Source: a virus
Reading direction: 5' to 3' (one strand)
Virus record (IMG/VR): IMGVR_UViG_3300021975_000006
Span: 1 to 20,030 of that record
Length of the DNA stretch: 20,030 nucleotides
The notes below the pieces were generated by a model. That model saw only the letters and a program-made list of their open reading frames with translations, was not told where the DNA came from and did not search any database. Each line of letters opens with the position of its first letter. Positions within the stretch are counted from its first letter, which is position 1. This document shows positions 777 through 20,030 of this stretch, piece by piece. Both the position numbers and the translations under genes were made by a program.

Positions 777-840
777 AAGCTTCTCTTAAATTATCATATG
801 ATATAATTACATTACAACAAATAAATATAAAGGGTACAAA
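777..840 (+). promoter_or_regulatory. Promoter-leader cassette, copy 1
   Basis: AAGC at 777-780 is followed after 18 nt by the extended -10 TGATATAAT (799-807), which runs into ATTACATTAC (806-815). The leader ends in the ribosome binding site AAAGGGTACAAA directly before ATG 841. The same arrangement, with identical AAGC-to-TG spacing, is found before the genes at 4494, 9729 and 10819. The -10 matches a sigma-70-type extended -10 element. The role of AAGC and of the ATTACATTAC block is unknown. Confidence 0.7.
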
Positions 841-4412: not shown

Positions 4413-4493
4413 TATAAGTTTCCTTTTTTATAAGCAAAGAATAATTATACCTATGCTATTATTACATTACATAACTTTTAAAGGATACAAAAA
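4413..4493 (+). promoter_or_regulatory. Promoter-leader cassette, copy 2
   Basis: A T-rich stretch bounded by TATAAG and TATAAGC (4413-4435) ends in AAGC at 4432-4435. After 18 nt comes TGCTATTAT (4454-4462) fused to ATTACATTACA (4461-4471). The leader carries AAAGGATACAAA before ATG 4494. Spacing and sequence match the copies upstream of 841, 9729 and 10819. The TATAAGTTTCCT start of this element also recurs at 10604. Confidence 0.7.
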
Positions 4494-5600
4494 ATGTACT
4501 TAAAATACACAGCCCCAACAAATCACAAATTTTACAATTACCTCATAAACCAAAGAGGGATAACCCCACAAGAGATAGAAGAATACCAAATAGGCTTTGC
4601 AGGGGATTTTTTAGAAGAAAAAAACAAATTAAGAGACTATAGAGGTAACCAAATGATAGCATTTAGAAAAGATAAAAGGGGTCAATTCGCCCCTATCTTC
4701 TCAAATCGTGTTATGTTCCCTATTATGAACATAGAGGGGAAAATAATCGCATGGAGTGGGAGAAGCTTAGACCCTAAGCAGCCGAAATATTTCAATAGTG
4801 CAGAGAGTAGATTATTTAACAAATCCCAAAGCTTCTTTGGCTTAAATGTTTTTCTAAATAAAAAAAATAGAAAAAAAATAATAATAGTAGAGGGACAAAT
4901 TGATGCTATAAAAGCTAACCGATACGCCCCATCACTTGCCCCTATGGGGAAATTTACTAAAACCCACGCTAAAACACTAAGAGGGTTAGGGGTTAAAGAG
5001 GCTTTAATTGTAGGCGATAATGATAAAGCAGGGAGAGAATTCACACGACAGGCAATCAAGTATTGTTTAGAGTGTGATATATTACCAAAGGTAGGCAAGT
5101 TAAAAAAAGAATTTAACGATTTTGGAGAAACTAGCAATCAAAAGTTTAGCGATATTGTAGAAGTCCAAGACCTATATACATATTTAAAAAGTATTATAAG
5201 TTTTATTCAAAATAAAAAAGAGTTCGGATATACAAATCAATACTATGATTTTATAAACGAGTTCCCTACCCTCTCTTTTTTATCAGTCCAAGAAGCCAAA
5301 AAACTATACTTATTGGGACAAGAGGTAAAAGGCGAGTTACAAGCCACTATAACAAATAAGTACTATAGCTTAATTTTTAACTCCACTTTTTCAGATAAAA
5401 AATACAGAACAGAAAATACAAATATAGAGGGGTTGACTTTGGATAGATTAGGTTTTACAGTCCATCATTTCATACCCGTTATATATGAAGATGAGAACAG
5501 AAAAGCATATTATGACCTTAGAAGTAAGAAAGAAATTGATTTATCAAAAGAAGAAAAAGAGAGAATAAGAAAGATAGCTAAATTTTTAAGCCCATCATGA
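4494..5600 (+). CDS. TOPRIM-domain DNA primase (DnaG-like) without an N-terminal zinc ribbon
   Basis: A 368-residue protein resembling the catalytic core of DnaG-type primases, which make RNA primers for lagging-strand synthesis. Residues 1-100 match the N-terminal subdomain of the RNA polymerase core: YLINQRGITPQEIEEYQIGFAG (16-37), then IMNIEGKIIAWSGR (77-90) and PKYFNSAES (97-105). The TOPRIM fold follows: VEGQIDAIK (132-140) with the catalytic Glu133, VGDNDKAG (173-180) with the Asp175-x-Asp177 metal pair, and a third acidic segment KEFNDFGE (205-212). Residues 220-368 are helical and not recognised. The CHC2-type zinc ribbon found at the start of most DnaG proteins is absent; the start is well fixed by the leader, so this is not a mis-called start. 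The neighbouring helicase carries two zinc ribbons. The stop codon TGA overlaps a downstream promoter. Confidence 0.88.
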   Translation: MYLKYTAPTNHKFYNYLINQRGITPQEIEEYQIGFAGDFLEEKNKLRDYRGNQMIAFRKDKRGQFAPIFSNRVMFPIMNIEGKIIAWSGRSLDPKQPKYFNSAESRLFNKSQSFFGLNVFLNKKNRKKIIIVEGQIDAIKANRYAPSLAPMGKFTKTHAKTLRGLGVKEALIVGDNDKAGREFTRQAIKYCLECDILPKVGKLKKEFNDFGETSNQKFSDIVEVQDLYTYLKSIISFIQNKKEFGYTNQYYDFINEFPTLSFLSVQEAKKLYLLGQEVKGELQATITNKYYSLIFNSTFSDKKYRTENTNIEGLTLDRLGFTVHHFIPVIYEDENRKAYYDLRSKKEIDLSKEEKERIRKIAKFLSPS

Positions 5601-5626
5601 TATAATTCTAATAGGGTTTACTAAAC
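5598..5626 (+). promoter_or_regulatory. First promoter of the structural block, with a downstream dyad
   Basis: TGATATAAT at 5598-5606 is a consensus extended -10 element that overlaps the primase stop codon TGA (5598-5600). Ten bases downstream, around and just past the expected start point, GTTTACTAAAC (5616-5626) forms a near-perfect dyad (five-base arms, one central base) that could be an operator. The next gene starts at 5687. Confidence 0.6.
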
Positions 5627-5642
5627 ATTTCCCTTCCTTTAC

Positions 5643-5684
5643 CTAAAACCTTTTTTGTGATATAATTTGCAAAAAAGGTTTTAG
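5643..5684 (+). promoter_or_regulatory. Second promoter of the structural block, inside a perfect 15-bp inverted repeat
   Basis: CTAAAACCTTTTTTG (5643-5657) and CAAAAAAGGTTTTAG (5670-5684) are exact reverse complements. The 12-base centre holds the extended -10 TGATATAAT (5658-5666). The right arm supplies AAGG upstream of ATG 5687, only about eight bases away. The structure could be an operator clamping the promoter, a stem exposing the -10 on single-stranded DNA, or, in transcripts from the promoter at 5598, a hairpin that hides the ribosome binding site of the next gene. It lacks a T run for an intrinsic terminator. Confidence 0.65.
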
Positions 5685-5686
5685 TG

Positions 5687-5863
5687 ATGCGAAAATTAAC
5701 AAAGCTTATCGACACTTTAAAAGAAAAGTTCCCTGATAAAATCCCAACTAACCAACTGATAACAGAACGAGATATATCTTTTTTACAAGGACAGCAAAAT
5801 ATAATTAGCTATATAGTCCAATATCAAAAAGAGCTAATCCAAAAAGAACAGGGTAAAAAATGA
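5687..5863 (+). CDS. Small protein of unknown function just upstream of the portal gene
   Basis: A 58-codon gene starting MRKLTKLIDTLKEKFPDK and ending IQKEQGKK. Its stop TGA overlaps the portal ATG in an ATGA junction (5860-5863), strong evidence that it is translated and coupled to the portal gene. AAGG in the right arm of the upstream dyad serves as ribosome binding site. The protein is charged and mostly helical; the segment DISFLQGQQNIISYIVQ (29-45) looks amphipathic. Many podoviruses place a small helical protein directly before the portal, but I cannot assign this one to a named family. It may act in portal assembly or packaging; that is inference from position only. Confidence 0.72.
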   Translation: MRKLTKLIDTLKEKFPDKIPTNQLITERDISFLQGQQNIISYIVQYQKELIQKEQGKK

Positions 5864-7341
5864 ATATCCAATATAACGCCCTATCCACAGACCGACAAAG
5901 ATATATAGATATAACTAAAGAGTTAGAGCTATACACTTTTAACATACTAAGAGACTCGAAAACACAAGGTAGTCACCCCATAAGACACCAATCCCTAGGA
6001 GCTGATTTAATCGCCTCACTATCCTCTAAACTTTTAAAATCCGTTTTCCCTTTTGGCTATCGCTTCTTTACTCTAAGCGTGGATAACCCACCACAAGACC
6101 AAAAAAAAGAAGATGAGATAACAGATATACTAATCTCATTAGAAAAAGAGATAGGCAAAGAAGCCAACAAAGGAATATTAAGAGGTTTTCTTATTGGTGC
6201 AATGGAACACTTACTAATTAGTGGGAACGCCTTGATAGACTTTACAGGGGATAAGCCAAATATGTATAGTCTAGACGAGTATGTAATTGCTAGGAGAGAA
6301 ACAGGAGATTGGCACACAATAATAATCAAAAAAGAAATTGTGGTATTACCTGATGACAAAAGCGTATATGTAAAATATTTGGAGCAATTAGGAAGCTATA
6401 CCAATGAACAGGACTACAGACTAGAGAAAGAGTATCATCATGATTTTTATATCCAATACAGAAGAAAAGAAAATGATATAGTAGAGGTCACCGAATGGTT
6501 AGAAGAGATTGAAGTAGTGGAGCAAAAGAGGGAAATAGCATTTAAAAAACTAAACCTCTACCCTATCCGACTATATGAAGAGGCAGGATATAATTATAGT
6601 TACGGATATGCCTATAGATATATAGGAGATTTGAGAGCCTATGACATAGAAAGAAAAGCACTAAGCGAAAACATAATCGAGGGTTCAAAGCTTTTACACT
6701 TAGTTAACCCTCAATCTAACACGGCTGATAATATCAAGGAAATACAGGATGCTAAAAACGGCGATTTTATCGTAGGACATGAGGGCGATATAACCCCTTA
6801 TGGTGGGGCAGATTTTAGGAATATCCAATTTCAAGACCAAATACTAGACAAGAAAGAAAGAAACCTATCCATATCTTTTTTAAGGGGTACAGGCGTAGTT
6901 AAGCAGGGTCAACAAACAGCTTATGAGATACAAACGCTAATTAATGAAATGATGGAGAAATTCGGAGGGTTTTTTATTACCATATCCGAGAGCCTGCAAA
7001 AACCAACCTTTAATTTTTTACTAAGCAAACTAAAAATAGAAAAAGAATTAAAAGGTGTCAATGTAGAATTTATGAACGGAGTAACTCAACTAAGAGACGC
7101 TGAAACATTCCAAGCACTCCAACAAATCGCACCGTTAGAACTCCTTTATCAAAGTGGAGCAGTAACCCAAGCGATAAGCACAGAAAAAGTTATTTCTCTC
7201 TATTGTGAAACTATAGGGATAGATAAACGAGATATTCTAAAAGATGAGGAGGAAATACAGGCAGAAGAGCAAACAAAGGTGAACCAACAGTTAATGGCAA
7301 ACGCAGGGGCAGGACAACCCCCACAGCAACCCCAACAATAA
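5860..7341 (+). CDS. Portal protein (T7 gp8-like head-to-tail connector)
   Basis: A 493-residue portal of the podovirus head-tail connector family; T7 gp8 has 536 residues. The portal ring is the single vertex through which DNA is packaged and ejected and the platform for the tail. Visible landmarks are the N-terminal HQSLGADLIASLSSKLLKSVFPF (43-65), corresponding to the family's helical region followed by an F-P turn, and YGYAYRYIGDLRAYDIERKA with a following SKLLHLVNP, which closely matches the T7-like pattern of a Y-x-x-G-D-L-R helix and K-V-x-x-L-V-N-P strand. The segment NGDFIVGHEGDITPYG matches the next family motif (GDFVxGxxxDI). The C-terminus is a Gln/Pro tail. ATG 5860 overlaps the previous stop. 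The stop is followed at once by AAAGGA, the site for the next gene, so the block 5687-9360 is one operon. Confidence 0.92.
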   Translation: MNIQYNALSTDRQRYIDITKELELYTFNILRDSKTQGSHPIRHQSLGADLIASLSSKLLKSVFPFGYRFFTLSVDNPPQDQKKEDEITDILISLEKEIGKEANKGILRGFLIGAMEHLLISGNALIDFTGDKPNMYSLDEYVIARRETGDWHTIIIKKEIVVLPDDKSVYVKYLEQLGSYTNEQDYRLEKEYHHDFYIQYRRKENDIVEVTEWLEEIEVVEQKREIAFKKLNLYPIRLYEEAGYNYSYGYAYRYIGDLRAYDIERKALSENIIEGSKLLHLVNPQSNTADNIKEIQDAKNGDFIVGHEGDITPYGGADFRNIQFQDQILDKKERNLSISFLRGTGVVKQGQQTAYEIQTLINEMMEKFGGFFITISESLQKPTFNFLLSKLKIEKELKGVNVEFMNGVTQLRDAETFQALQQIAPLELLYQSGAVTQAISTEKVISLYCETIGIDKRDILKDEEEIQAEEQTKVNQQLMANAGAGQPPQQPQQ

Positions 7342-9668: not shown

Positions 9669-9728
9669 AAGCCCCTCTTAATAATCCTTATGCTATCATT
9701 ACATTACAATTTAATTTAAAGGATTACA
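9669..9728 (+). promoter_or_regulatory. Promoter-leader cassette, copy 3
   Basis: AAGC at 9669-9672, 18 nt, then TGCTATCAT (9691-9699) fused to ATTACATTACA (9698-9708), then TTTAAAGGATTACA directly before ATG 9729. The bases from AAAGC to the -10 also resemble copy 1, with CTCTTAA in both spacers at the same place. Confidence 0.7.
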
Positions 9729-10757: not shown

Positions 10758-10818
10758 AAGCACACTTTAGTATTTCTTATGCTATCATTACATTACATTT
10801 TATTTAAAGGATACAAAG
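10758..10818 (+). promoter_or_regulatory. Promoter-leader cassette, copy 4
   Basis: AAGC at 10758-10761, 18 nt, TGCTATCAT (10780-10788) fused to ATTACATTACA (10787-10797), then TTTAAAGGATACAAAG before ATG 10819. From the -10 to the start codon it is almost identical to copy 3. Confidence 0.7.
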
Positions 10819-11442
10819 ATGAAACAATTAGCAATCAACAATCAAACAATCAGTTTAAAAGTAGAGAATGGTAAAGCCTTTGCTACATCATTGGATATTG
10901 CAAAAGTATTTAATAAGAGACATGATAATGTTATTAGAAAAATTAAGGCATTAGAGGGCTTTAATGATTATTTTAACCTCCTCAAAATTGAGGAGGTTAA
11001 ATATATAGATAAAAAAGGTGAAAAACGCCCAATGTATAAACTAGATAGAGATATTTTTATATTGGTGGTATCTAAACTAACAGGTGGAAAAGCCGAAAGA
11101 TACATTTATGAGTTTATCCAAGCTTTTAACCTATTAGAAGAGGAATATTTTAAAACTCAAAAAACTTTAACAGCTGATAACGACAAAGATTTAGTGCTAG
11201 AGCATACACTACCCTTTGACCCAAAGAATACGATTAGTAAAGTAAACGGTTTGAAGCGTGATAAACTTGTTAAGAGTTATTACAGAAGTAAAAACGGTAA
11301 AGAGCTTAGAGCATTAGATAGTGCTATAGCAGAGCTTAAGACTTCTTTGTTTGGTTGGGACGAGGATATGCTAATAGAGCTTATTGATAGAAGAAATGAA
11401 TTAGTATCACAGAGAAACGAGTTTATAGCCCTTATTTCTTAA
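10819..11442 (+). CDS. Rha-family phage regulatory protein
   Basis: A 207-residue protein with the Rha domain at about 18-105. FATSLDIAKVFNKRHDNVIR (21-40) matches the family's helix-turn-helix start (S-x-x-I-A-x-x-x-x-x-x-H-x-x-V-x-R-x-I). YIDKKGEKRPMYKLDRD (62-78) and LTGGKAERYIYEFIQAFN (87-104) match the following conserved Y-x-D-x-x-G and T-G-x-K-A motifs. Rha proteins occur in many temperate phages and interfere with growth when host IHF is absent in the P22-like prototype. The C-terminal half (125-207) is helical and not recognised; it may be an effector domain. The gene has its own cassette promoter. A perfect 14-bp dyad lies inside it (10972-11001). The start is fixed by AAAGGATACAAAG just upstream. 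Confidence 0.85.
   Translation: MKQLAINNQTISLKVENGKAFATSLDIAKVFNKRHDNVIRKIKALEGFNDYFNLLKIEEVKYIDKKGEKRPMYKLDRDIFILVVSKLTGGKAERYIYEFIQAFNLLEEEYFKTQKTLTADNDKDLVLEHTLPFDPKNTISKVNGLKRDKLVKSYYRSKNGKELRALDSAIAELKTSLFGWDEDMLIELIDRRNELVSQRNEFIALIS
10972..11001. repeat. Perfect 14-bp inverted repeat inside the Rha gene
   Basis: TTTAACCTCCTCAA (10972-10985) and TTGAGGAGGTTAAA (10988-11001) are exact reverse complements with two bases between them. It encodes FNLLKIEEVK within the Rha domain. The right arm contains AGGAGG, a strong ribosome-binding-site-like sequence, but no ATG follows at working distance. Possible roles are an operator for autoregulation or a hairpin in the mRNA. Confidence 0.8.
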
Positions 11443-18943: not shown

Positions 18944-20030
18944 TGCAAACCATTAGAAACTTAACCGATATATCTCATAATAAGGCTATAGCTTTATATG
19001 AGGAAAAAATTAATATCTATGGTACAGATGGAGTTTTATTTTCTATTGATACAGACGGAAATATATATCGTGCTTTAGACACAAAAGCAAATATGGCAGG
19101 GGCTTTATTAAATGATAATAGCAAATGGCTAAAAGTAGATTTAATCAATAATCAAAACATAGCTAATCATGCTTTGGGAGCTATTAAAAAAGGATTAGGG
19201 CAAATACTCACGGCAGATTTAAAATTAAATGTAGATATGGGGGCTTTATATACTTATGATGAAACCAAAATGTCATATACTAAAAATGATATAGCTCTAC
19301 AGAATAACGCCCAATTCGACATTATAGACACAACAGGGGCAGACATTGAGACAAACAAGAGCGAAATAGATGTTACTAGCTATGATAATAACGGAACAGT
19401 TACAGCATTAGGCAGAACCACACACGCAACTTTTATCAAGTTCTATATAACAAGTGGTGGCAGACTCAAACAGATGAGGGGGACAGTTGAATATACCTCA
19501 TTAAACAAGGCTTCATATACTTATATGAGTGAACAAATACCAAATCTTAGTGACAATGGTTTATATTTTATAGGTGGTATTCTTGCTAAGAAAAATTGCG
19601 ATGACTTATCCGACCCAAATCAGGCAAGGGTTATTTATGCTTCAAAATTAGGAGAGAGTCAAGTAGGTTCAGCAGGGAGTATATACGCTCTTTTAAAAGC
19701 TCCAGTTTCGGACATAGCAGAGTTAAAAGCTATTGAAGCCCCTGAAGATGGAGAGGTTAGGCAATTAACCGACAATCTACCAAACACAAGCTTTTATATT
19801 TTTAATACCTTAGCAACGACAGGTATCGCCCCTGATGATGGCACAACAGGTAATTGGAATATACTCGAGGGTGGGGGAAAAATAGAAGCAGAAAGCAAAA
19901 CAACAGACTTTACAGGAGAAGCAGGGAAAAATTATCTTTGCGATAGTTCGGCAGGTGCTATTACTGCAACCATAGAAACCCAAGACACCAACAATAAAAA
20001 TAAAATGTTGGCATTTAAAAAAGTAGATAA
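18943..20030 (+). CDS. Tail fibre or spike protein, N-terminal part (runs off the window)
   Basis: A frame open from ATG 18943 to the window edge, 362 whole codons. It starts MQTIRNLTDISHNKAIALYE and overlaps the preceding stop. Segments seen: YGTDGVLFSIDTDGNIYRAL (about 26-45), a beta strand pair like those in the fibre gene two positions upstream; then helix-poor beta-rich sequence; PVSDIAELKAIEAPEDGEVRQL (about 255-276), the typical 'V-x-x-I-A-x-L-x-A-x-x-x-x-x-D-G-x-x-V' fibre segment; and NWNILEGGGK near 309. Near the end, FTGEAGKNYLCDSSAGAITATI is the common phage pattern of 'F-x-x-x-x-G-x-x-Y-x-x-D-x-x-x-x-x-x-T-x-x-L' that precedes C-terminal receptor domains. No stop codon lies in this frame. 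Confidence 0.8.
   Translation, partial: MQTIRNLTDISHNKAIALYEEKINIYGTDGVLFSIDTDGNIYRALDTKANMAGALLNDNSKWLKVDLINNQNIANHALGAIKKGLGQILTADLKLNVDMGALYTYDETKMSYTKNDIALQNNAQFDIIDTTGADIETNKSEIDVTSYDNNGTVTALGRTTHATFIKFYITSGGRLKQMRGTVEYTSLNKASYTYMSEQIPNLSDNGLYFIGGILAKKNCDDLSDPNQARVIYASKLGESQVGSAGSIYALLKAPVSDIAELKAIEAPEDGEVRQLTDNLPNTSFYIFNTLATTGIAPDDGTTGNWNILEGGGKIEAESKTTDFTGEAGKNYLCDSSAGAITATIETQDTNNKNKMLAFKKVD

Follow-up and report, generated by a model that had tools for sequence, protein, structure and literature searches.

In phage T4, the genes e, soc, 49 and I-TevI carry a hairpin over the ribosome binding site that silences the early RNA, and RNA from the late promoter, which is devoid of the 5' strand of the hairpin, is translated; the effect of the hairpin is about 100-fold for gene e, and in these genes, as in segB and Aeh1 mobE, which have such a hairpin too, the late promoter is situated in or beside the 5' strand (PMC3014915 and PMC2988022). 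This gating trick, known from T4, appears to be used with a host-type promoter at the locus considered here, which belongs to an unrelated phage group. Transposase synthesis of IS10 and IS50 is prevented in a similar way, because RNA reading in from outside hides the ribosome binding site and RNA from the element's own promoter does not. As in the gate proposed below, the site is hidden in readthrough RNA alone, but IS10 and IS50 are ends of mobile elements.

The stretch of viral DNA analysed as a whole (the window; 20 kb, 34% G+C) is, as judged from its genes, a divergent phage of the T7 supergroup, since a T7-type head-tail connector (PF12236, E 8e-19) and a gp10-like capsid protein (phrog_267, E 2.7e-13) are present. 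The gene order is YqaJ exonuclease, helicase, DnaG-type primase, a dyad, a 58-codon gene (phrog_4970) and the connector, followed by scaffold-like, KilA-N and Rha-like genes, the gp10-like capsid gene and tail genes. A comparison of the DNA of this region with 50,697 phage records gave no match. The features of the locus are as follows.

4494-5600, + strand: DnaG-type primase gene, co-directional and upstream (PF08275, E 6.5e-25; phrog_47)
5598-5606, + strand: candidate extended -10 TGATATAAT farther upstream, sharing bases with the stop codon of the primase gene (from sequence)
5643-5657, + strand: left arm of the dyad, CTAAAACCTTTTTTG, with the anti-SD CCTTTT inside
5658-5666, + strand: putative extended -10 TGATATAAT in the dyad centre (from sequence; all four relatives have a -10 in the corresponding position)
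5670-5684, + strand: right arm of the dyad, CAAAAAAGGTTTTAG, with the Shine-Dalgarno (SD) sequence AAAAGG inside (5673-5678)
5673, + strand: predicted transcription start, 7 nt after the -10 by the spacing rule
5687-5863, + strand: 58-codon gene, first of the structural operon (phrog_4970, E 6.6e-7)
5860-7341, + strand: portal gene (T7-type head-tail connector; PF12236, E 8e-19; phrog_449, E 8.3e-72)

The listed open reading frame of the small gene begins at GTG 5684 (59 codons), and counting from ATG 5687, with the SD-like AAAAGG 8 nt upstream, gives 58 codons. The portal start overlaps the stop of this gene (ATGA), and the TGA of the element at 5598 doubles as the stop codon of the gene before it. 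The primase gene is likely to be the source of readthrough RNA into the dyad; the terminator scan listed no terminator-like site on the + strand between the two. The dyad itself, being a stable stem downstream of a gene, could be taken for the intrinsic terminator of the primase operon, but a U tract past the stem is missing on both strands and the stem is absent from the list of the terminator scan; this reading is disfavoured and was rejected as having next to no probability.

The two 15-base arms are 100% reverse-complementary and enclose a centre of 12 nt, which makes the dyad the longest perfect one in the window at loops of up to 20 nt. When the whole window was shuffled 100 times by dinucleotides, the longest arm was 13, against 15 in the real sequence, and an arm of 15 bp was reached in 0 of 1000 shuffles of positions 5601-5700. 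The only other dyad of at least 14 bp in the window, at 10972-11001 (14 bp, 2-nt loop), lies within the Rha-like gene and has AGGAGG in its right arm. A functionless dyad, arisen by chance or as a by-product of a T-rich promoter standing next to an A-rich SD, would agree with the weak promoter-SD pairing general among AT-rich promoters and with the lack of conservation in three of four relatives. It is nevertheless unlikely in view of the local shuffles and of a second, unrelated dyad over the SD of the same gene in the relative L145.

The RNA of 5640-5687 has a predicted fold of -20.6 kcal/mol (z -7.45). Three extra pairs inside the 15-bp arms extend it to a predicted stem of 18 bp with a 6-nt loop, which persists in the predicted folds of longer RNA. 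The Rfam search gave a single irrelevant match, far under its gathering score. T7-type phages have RNase III sites between genes, and so long and uninterrupted a stem might be a place where RNase III or another activity cuts the readthrough RNA and alters the ends or stability of the mRNA. Such processing seems quite improbable to us, since cleavage within the stem would either take away the SD or uncover it, the corresponding stem of L145 has just 10 bp and typical full RNase III sites are longer than 18 bp.

Accessibility of the SD was expressed as the predicted cost of opening it, computed on RNA reaching from 60 nt before to 30 nt after each start. Freeing the SD of the start at 5687 would cost 13.9 kcal/mol in the readthrough RNA. 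RNA beginning at 5645 still has a cost of 12.45 kcal/mol, as compared with 2.7 kcal/mol for RNA beginning at 5672-5674, from which the left arm is gone; hence it is the left arm that would hide the SD. Among 60 gene starts in five members of the clade (43 SD-bearing and scored, 17 unscored), only the start at 5687 and its counterpart in L145 (12.5 kcal/mol) exceed 6.0 kcal/mol. The background comes from 129 other AT-rich loci with 352 SD-bearing genes; two of these genes reach 10 kcal/mol, and the two are near-identical, apparently one gene counted twice. Of 133 distant T7-like loci matching the portal, 52 had their portal-preceding gene scored, and the next value below that of the window is 7.9 kcal/mol; the small gene of L145 was outside this survey, since a further small gene separates it from the portal.

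The first-pass annotation of this locus had described exactly reverse-complementary arms around a promoter motif, a dyad beyond chance and a right arm forming the 5' end of the mRNA and carrying the ribosome binding site of the 58-codon gene, which readthrough mRNA would mask by folding. The arms, the motif in the centre, the position of AAAAGG and the excess over shuffled sequences were confirmed (none of the 100 whole-window shuffles exceeds 13). By the spacing rule the predicted start at 5673 falls within the right arm, and the predicted costs, about 14 against about 2.7 kcal/mol for RNA of the embedded promoter, agree with the masking.

It is probable, in our opinion, that the dyad gates the leading gene of the structural operon at the RNA level, as in T4, keeping readthrough RNA silent and allowing translation of RNA from the inner promoter. 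RNA from upstream, made by the primase operon or from the candidate promoter at 5598, would contain both arms and form the 18-bp stem, so that the SD of the 58-codon gene would be hidden; translation of the portal gene would probably also be lowered through the overlapping ATGA. Host polymerase directed by the extended -10 in the loop would start at about 5673 within the right arm, and the resulting RNA, having no left arm and a free SD, would be translated. Synthesis of the small protein and the portal would thus require firing of the inner promoter. We infer the activity of the promoter, its start site, the effect on translation and the timing. The gate is favoured by the clade survey, where only the window gene and its L145 counterpart are costly, and by the independent construction of the L145 dyad. 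Against it are the missing dyad in three of four relatives, the position of the SD at the extreme 5' end of the gene's own predicted transcript (a leader of 14 nt) and the tendency of AT-rich promoters to pair with adjoining purine-rich SDs.

The arrangement resembles the T4 set in that the SD is hidden solely in the longer RNA, RNA of the inner promoter is without the left arm and a late gene stands behind early genes; for the window this is predicted. The T4 promoters are late promoters dependent on gp55 (TATAAATA), whereas the candidate promoter of the window is of a host, sigma70 type, an extended -10 placed between the arms of a perfect dyad, and the locus is therefore not a member of that set. 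The T4 set concerns lysis or homing genes, and the present gate would control the portal operon of an unrelated phage of the T7 supergroup. We suggest that the locus works like the T4 set by analogy, and no homology is claimed. A literature search found no case of such a gate at a portal operon.

By itself the motif TGNTATAAT shows no enrichment in the window (4 copies against 2.63 expected), so the promoter call is based on position and on the relatives. A promoter scan at the embedded element also shows TTTACC at a spacing of 17 nt. Transcription by the host polymerase is likely, because PF00940 (T7-type RNA polymerase) has no match in the 43-kb record of L145, and three of three control phages match. 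A gene for a single-subunit RNA polymerase, as expected of Autographiviridae, was likewise without a match in the 20-kb window and the records of the four relatives, which are possibly incomplete. The sigma70 promoters of Campylobacter jejuni have TGxTATAAT with no clear -35, and its ribosome binding site is AAGGA (PMC3656092). The extended -10 and the AAGGA-type SD of the window appear to match these elements. The Rha-like and primase proteins have weak matches to phages of Campylobacter and Helicobacter.

Relatives were found by alignment of the capsid protein, which gave L095, L096, L145 and L144/L146, the latter two being one contig; their capsids are 80-83% and their portals 47-51% identical to those of the window. 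A single-protein portal scan of viral contigs gave no match, an alignment scan yielded only relatives below 30% identity, and a scan of genome contigs gave five distant, uninformative loci. The 58-codon gene shares 41, 39 and 27% identity with its positional counterparts in L095, L096 and L145, respectively. All four relatives have a -10 shortly upstream of the gene that begins the structural operon. In L145, a perfect dyad of 10 bp (TTCTCCTATA / TATAGGAGAA) comes after TGATATAAT, and its right arm includes the SD AGGAG. The arms are unrelated in sequence to those of the window and cover the SD of the same gene; the anti-SD occupies 853-858, past the -10 and immediately ahead of the predicted start at 859. 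Opening of this SD has a predicted cost of 12.5 kcal/mol in readthrough RNA against 0.7-0.8 for RNA from 858-862, and arms of 10 bp arise in 4 of 1000 local shuffles. In L145 an element ATGATATAATTCT overlaps the stop codon of the preceding gene, like the 5598 element of the window.

The other relatives are built differently. In L095 and L096, TTATATAAT is followed by ATCCTCT and ATG, and the predicted start is at or adjoining the ATG, without SD or dyad, i.e. leaderless. L146 has TGGTATAAT, an ordinary leader and the SD AAAGGAG, and neither a dyad nor the 58-codon gene; its upstream open reading frame is divergent, with its own TGGTATAAT, and thus no readthrough is to be blocked. A terminator-like site follows the upstream gene of L095, and none was found after that of L145 or of the window. 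It is plausible that the start of the first gene is poorly usable on upstream RNA in the window, L145, L095 and L096, all of which have a co-directional upstream gene. Around positions 190-870 of L095, TTGGCTACCTTTTT-like repeats in both orientations stand upstream of a DHH phosphoesterase gene and look origin- or iteron-like.

Symmetry about a -10 is typical of operators, and the -10 lies within the symmetry here. Binding of a dimeric regulator to both arms, which would block or bend the -10, could also agree with an identical 36-bp nest carried at two operons by an unrelated record, G006. Copies of the arms in the window are at the level of chance (12 matches with up to 3 mismatches against 8.76 expected), L145 shares the position of SD and -10 and not the arm sequence, and three relatives keep the -10 without the dyad; the shared geometry and the lack of further copies make an operator less likely, and we assign it a low, though not negligible, probability. 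Another DNA-based reading is a hairpin promoter, as known from phage N4: supercoiling would extrude the dyad as a cruciform with the -10 as its loop, and the promoter would sense supercoiling or the state of replication. The predicted single-stranded DNA stem is stable (-13.2 kcal/mol, z -8.02), but the -10 of L145 is outside its dyad centre and the relatives manage without a dyad, which makes this reading very improbable. The first-pass suggestion of a repressor clamp on late genes thus gained no support. Its other proposal, that the dyad couples promoter choice to translation of the portal operon, was upheld in part: the masking of the SD recurs in L145, as predicted from folding, and the exact dyad is not conserved. 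An obligatory dyad is contradicted by L095, L096 and L146, where the -10 is kept and a dyad is absent, a result that the first-pass annotation itself had named as refuting its reading.

Beyond the clade, a scan for CCTTTT-N0-8-TGNTATAAT-N1-8-AAAAGG gave at least 119 stretches, with at least 74 distinct matches, at least 48 of them followed by a start and an open reading frame; as the pattern selects 6-bp pairing by construction, these counts indicate recurrence and not frequency. They are inflated by kinship (L249 and L267 come from a single record, L254/L231 and L205/L249 are related, and the palindrome of L206 was read twice). Among the matches listed, arms of at least 10 bp were found in 10 of 48 with a start against 1 of 26 without, and the ten, by our reading, represent about six lineages. 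Portal genes of the Phage_portal_3 family (PF06381) follow the pattern in L205, L249, L241, L284 and L190 among the matches listed, the portal of L205 being named by its likeness to that of L249. A terminase gene is directly upstream of the portal in L205 and L249, and in L242 a small gene comes after the terminase. The order of anti-SD, TGNTATAAT, SD and ATG is the same as in the window and stands there directly before the portal gene, but the portal family is PF06381 and not PF12236, and most stems are weaker (predicted SD opening of 12.2 kcal/mol in L284, 7.4 in L205, 6.1 in L190, 4.5 in L249 and 3.1 in L241). G006, the record of L249 and L267, has its identical anti-SD/-10/SD copies at 9684-9719 and 19002-19037, before the portal gene and another gene.

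The assumption that all promoters of AT-rich phages are paired with an SD was rejected (gain of at least 8 kcal/mol in 0 of 32 sites; shuffled mean 0.5). These sites remained from 76 found after removal of 42 fitting the anti-SD pattern and exclusion of the window and L145. The readthrough gain of the 32 genes did not exceed that with shuffled upstream DNA, and only extreme cases are therefore meaningful.

We propose, tentatively and as something rather doubtful at present, that AT-rich phages using the host polymerase have arrived repeatedly and independently at a gating of their structural operons by the start site of transcription. A promoter lying within the ribosome site, or joined to it, would leave the locally started RNA as the sole translatable isoform. 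The gating would be realised by a hairpin in the window and L145, by leaderless starts in L095 and L096 and by an anti-SD/-10/SD cassette before the portal in the unrelated Phage_portal_3 phages. Phages without their own RNA polymerase need structural genes to be silent on RNA running in from replication genes, and a 42-base element tying translation to the start point of the RNA would achieve this without any protein. That one homologous gene has hairpins of unrelated sequence in two phages and a leaderless alternative in others would open the underlying selection to testing. If the proposal is true, the annotation of genes and operons in these phages should consider which RNA isoform is translatable.

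Two further promoter-like arrangements were observed. A palindromic nest at 1337-1364 of L206, between two divergent genes, can be read as a promoter and an SD on both strands. A promoter-like repeat of 20 nt, TATGMTATNATTACATTACA, occurs four times in the window (797-816, 4452-4471, 9689-9708 and 10778-10797; 0.04 expected) and is not present in L095 and L096. Its copies precede the genes at 841, 4494, 9729 and 10819, with an AAAGG-type SD after each, and are possibly one class of co-regulated promoters.
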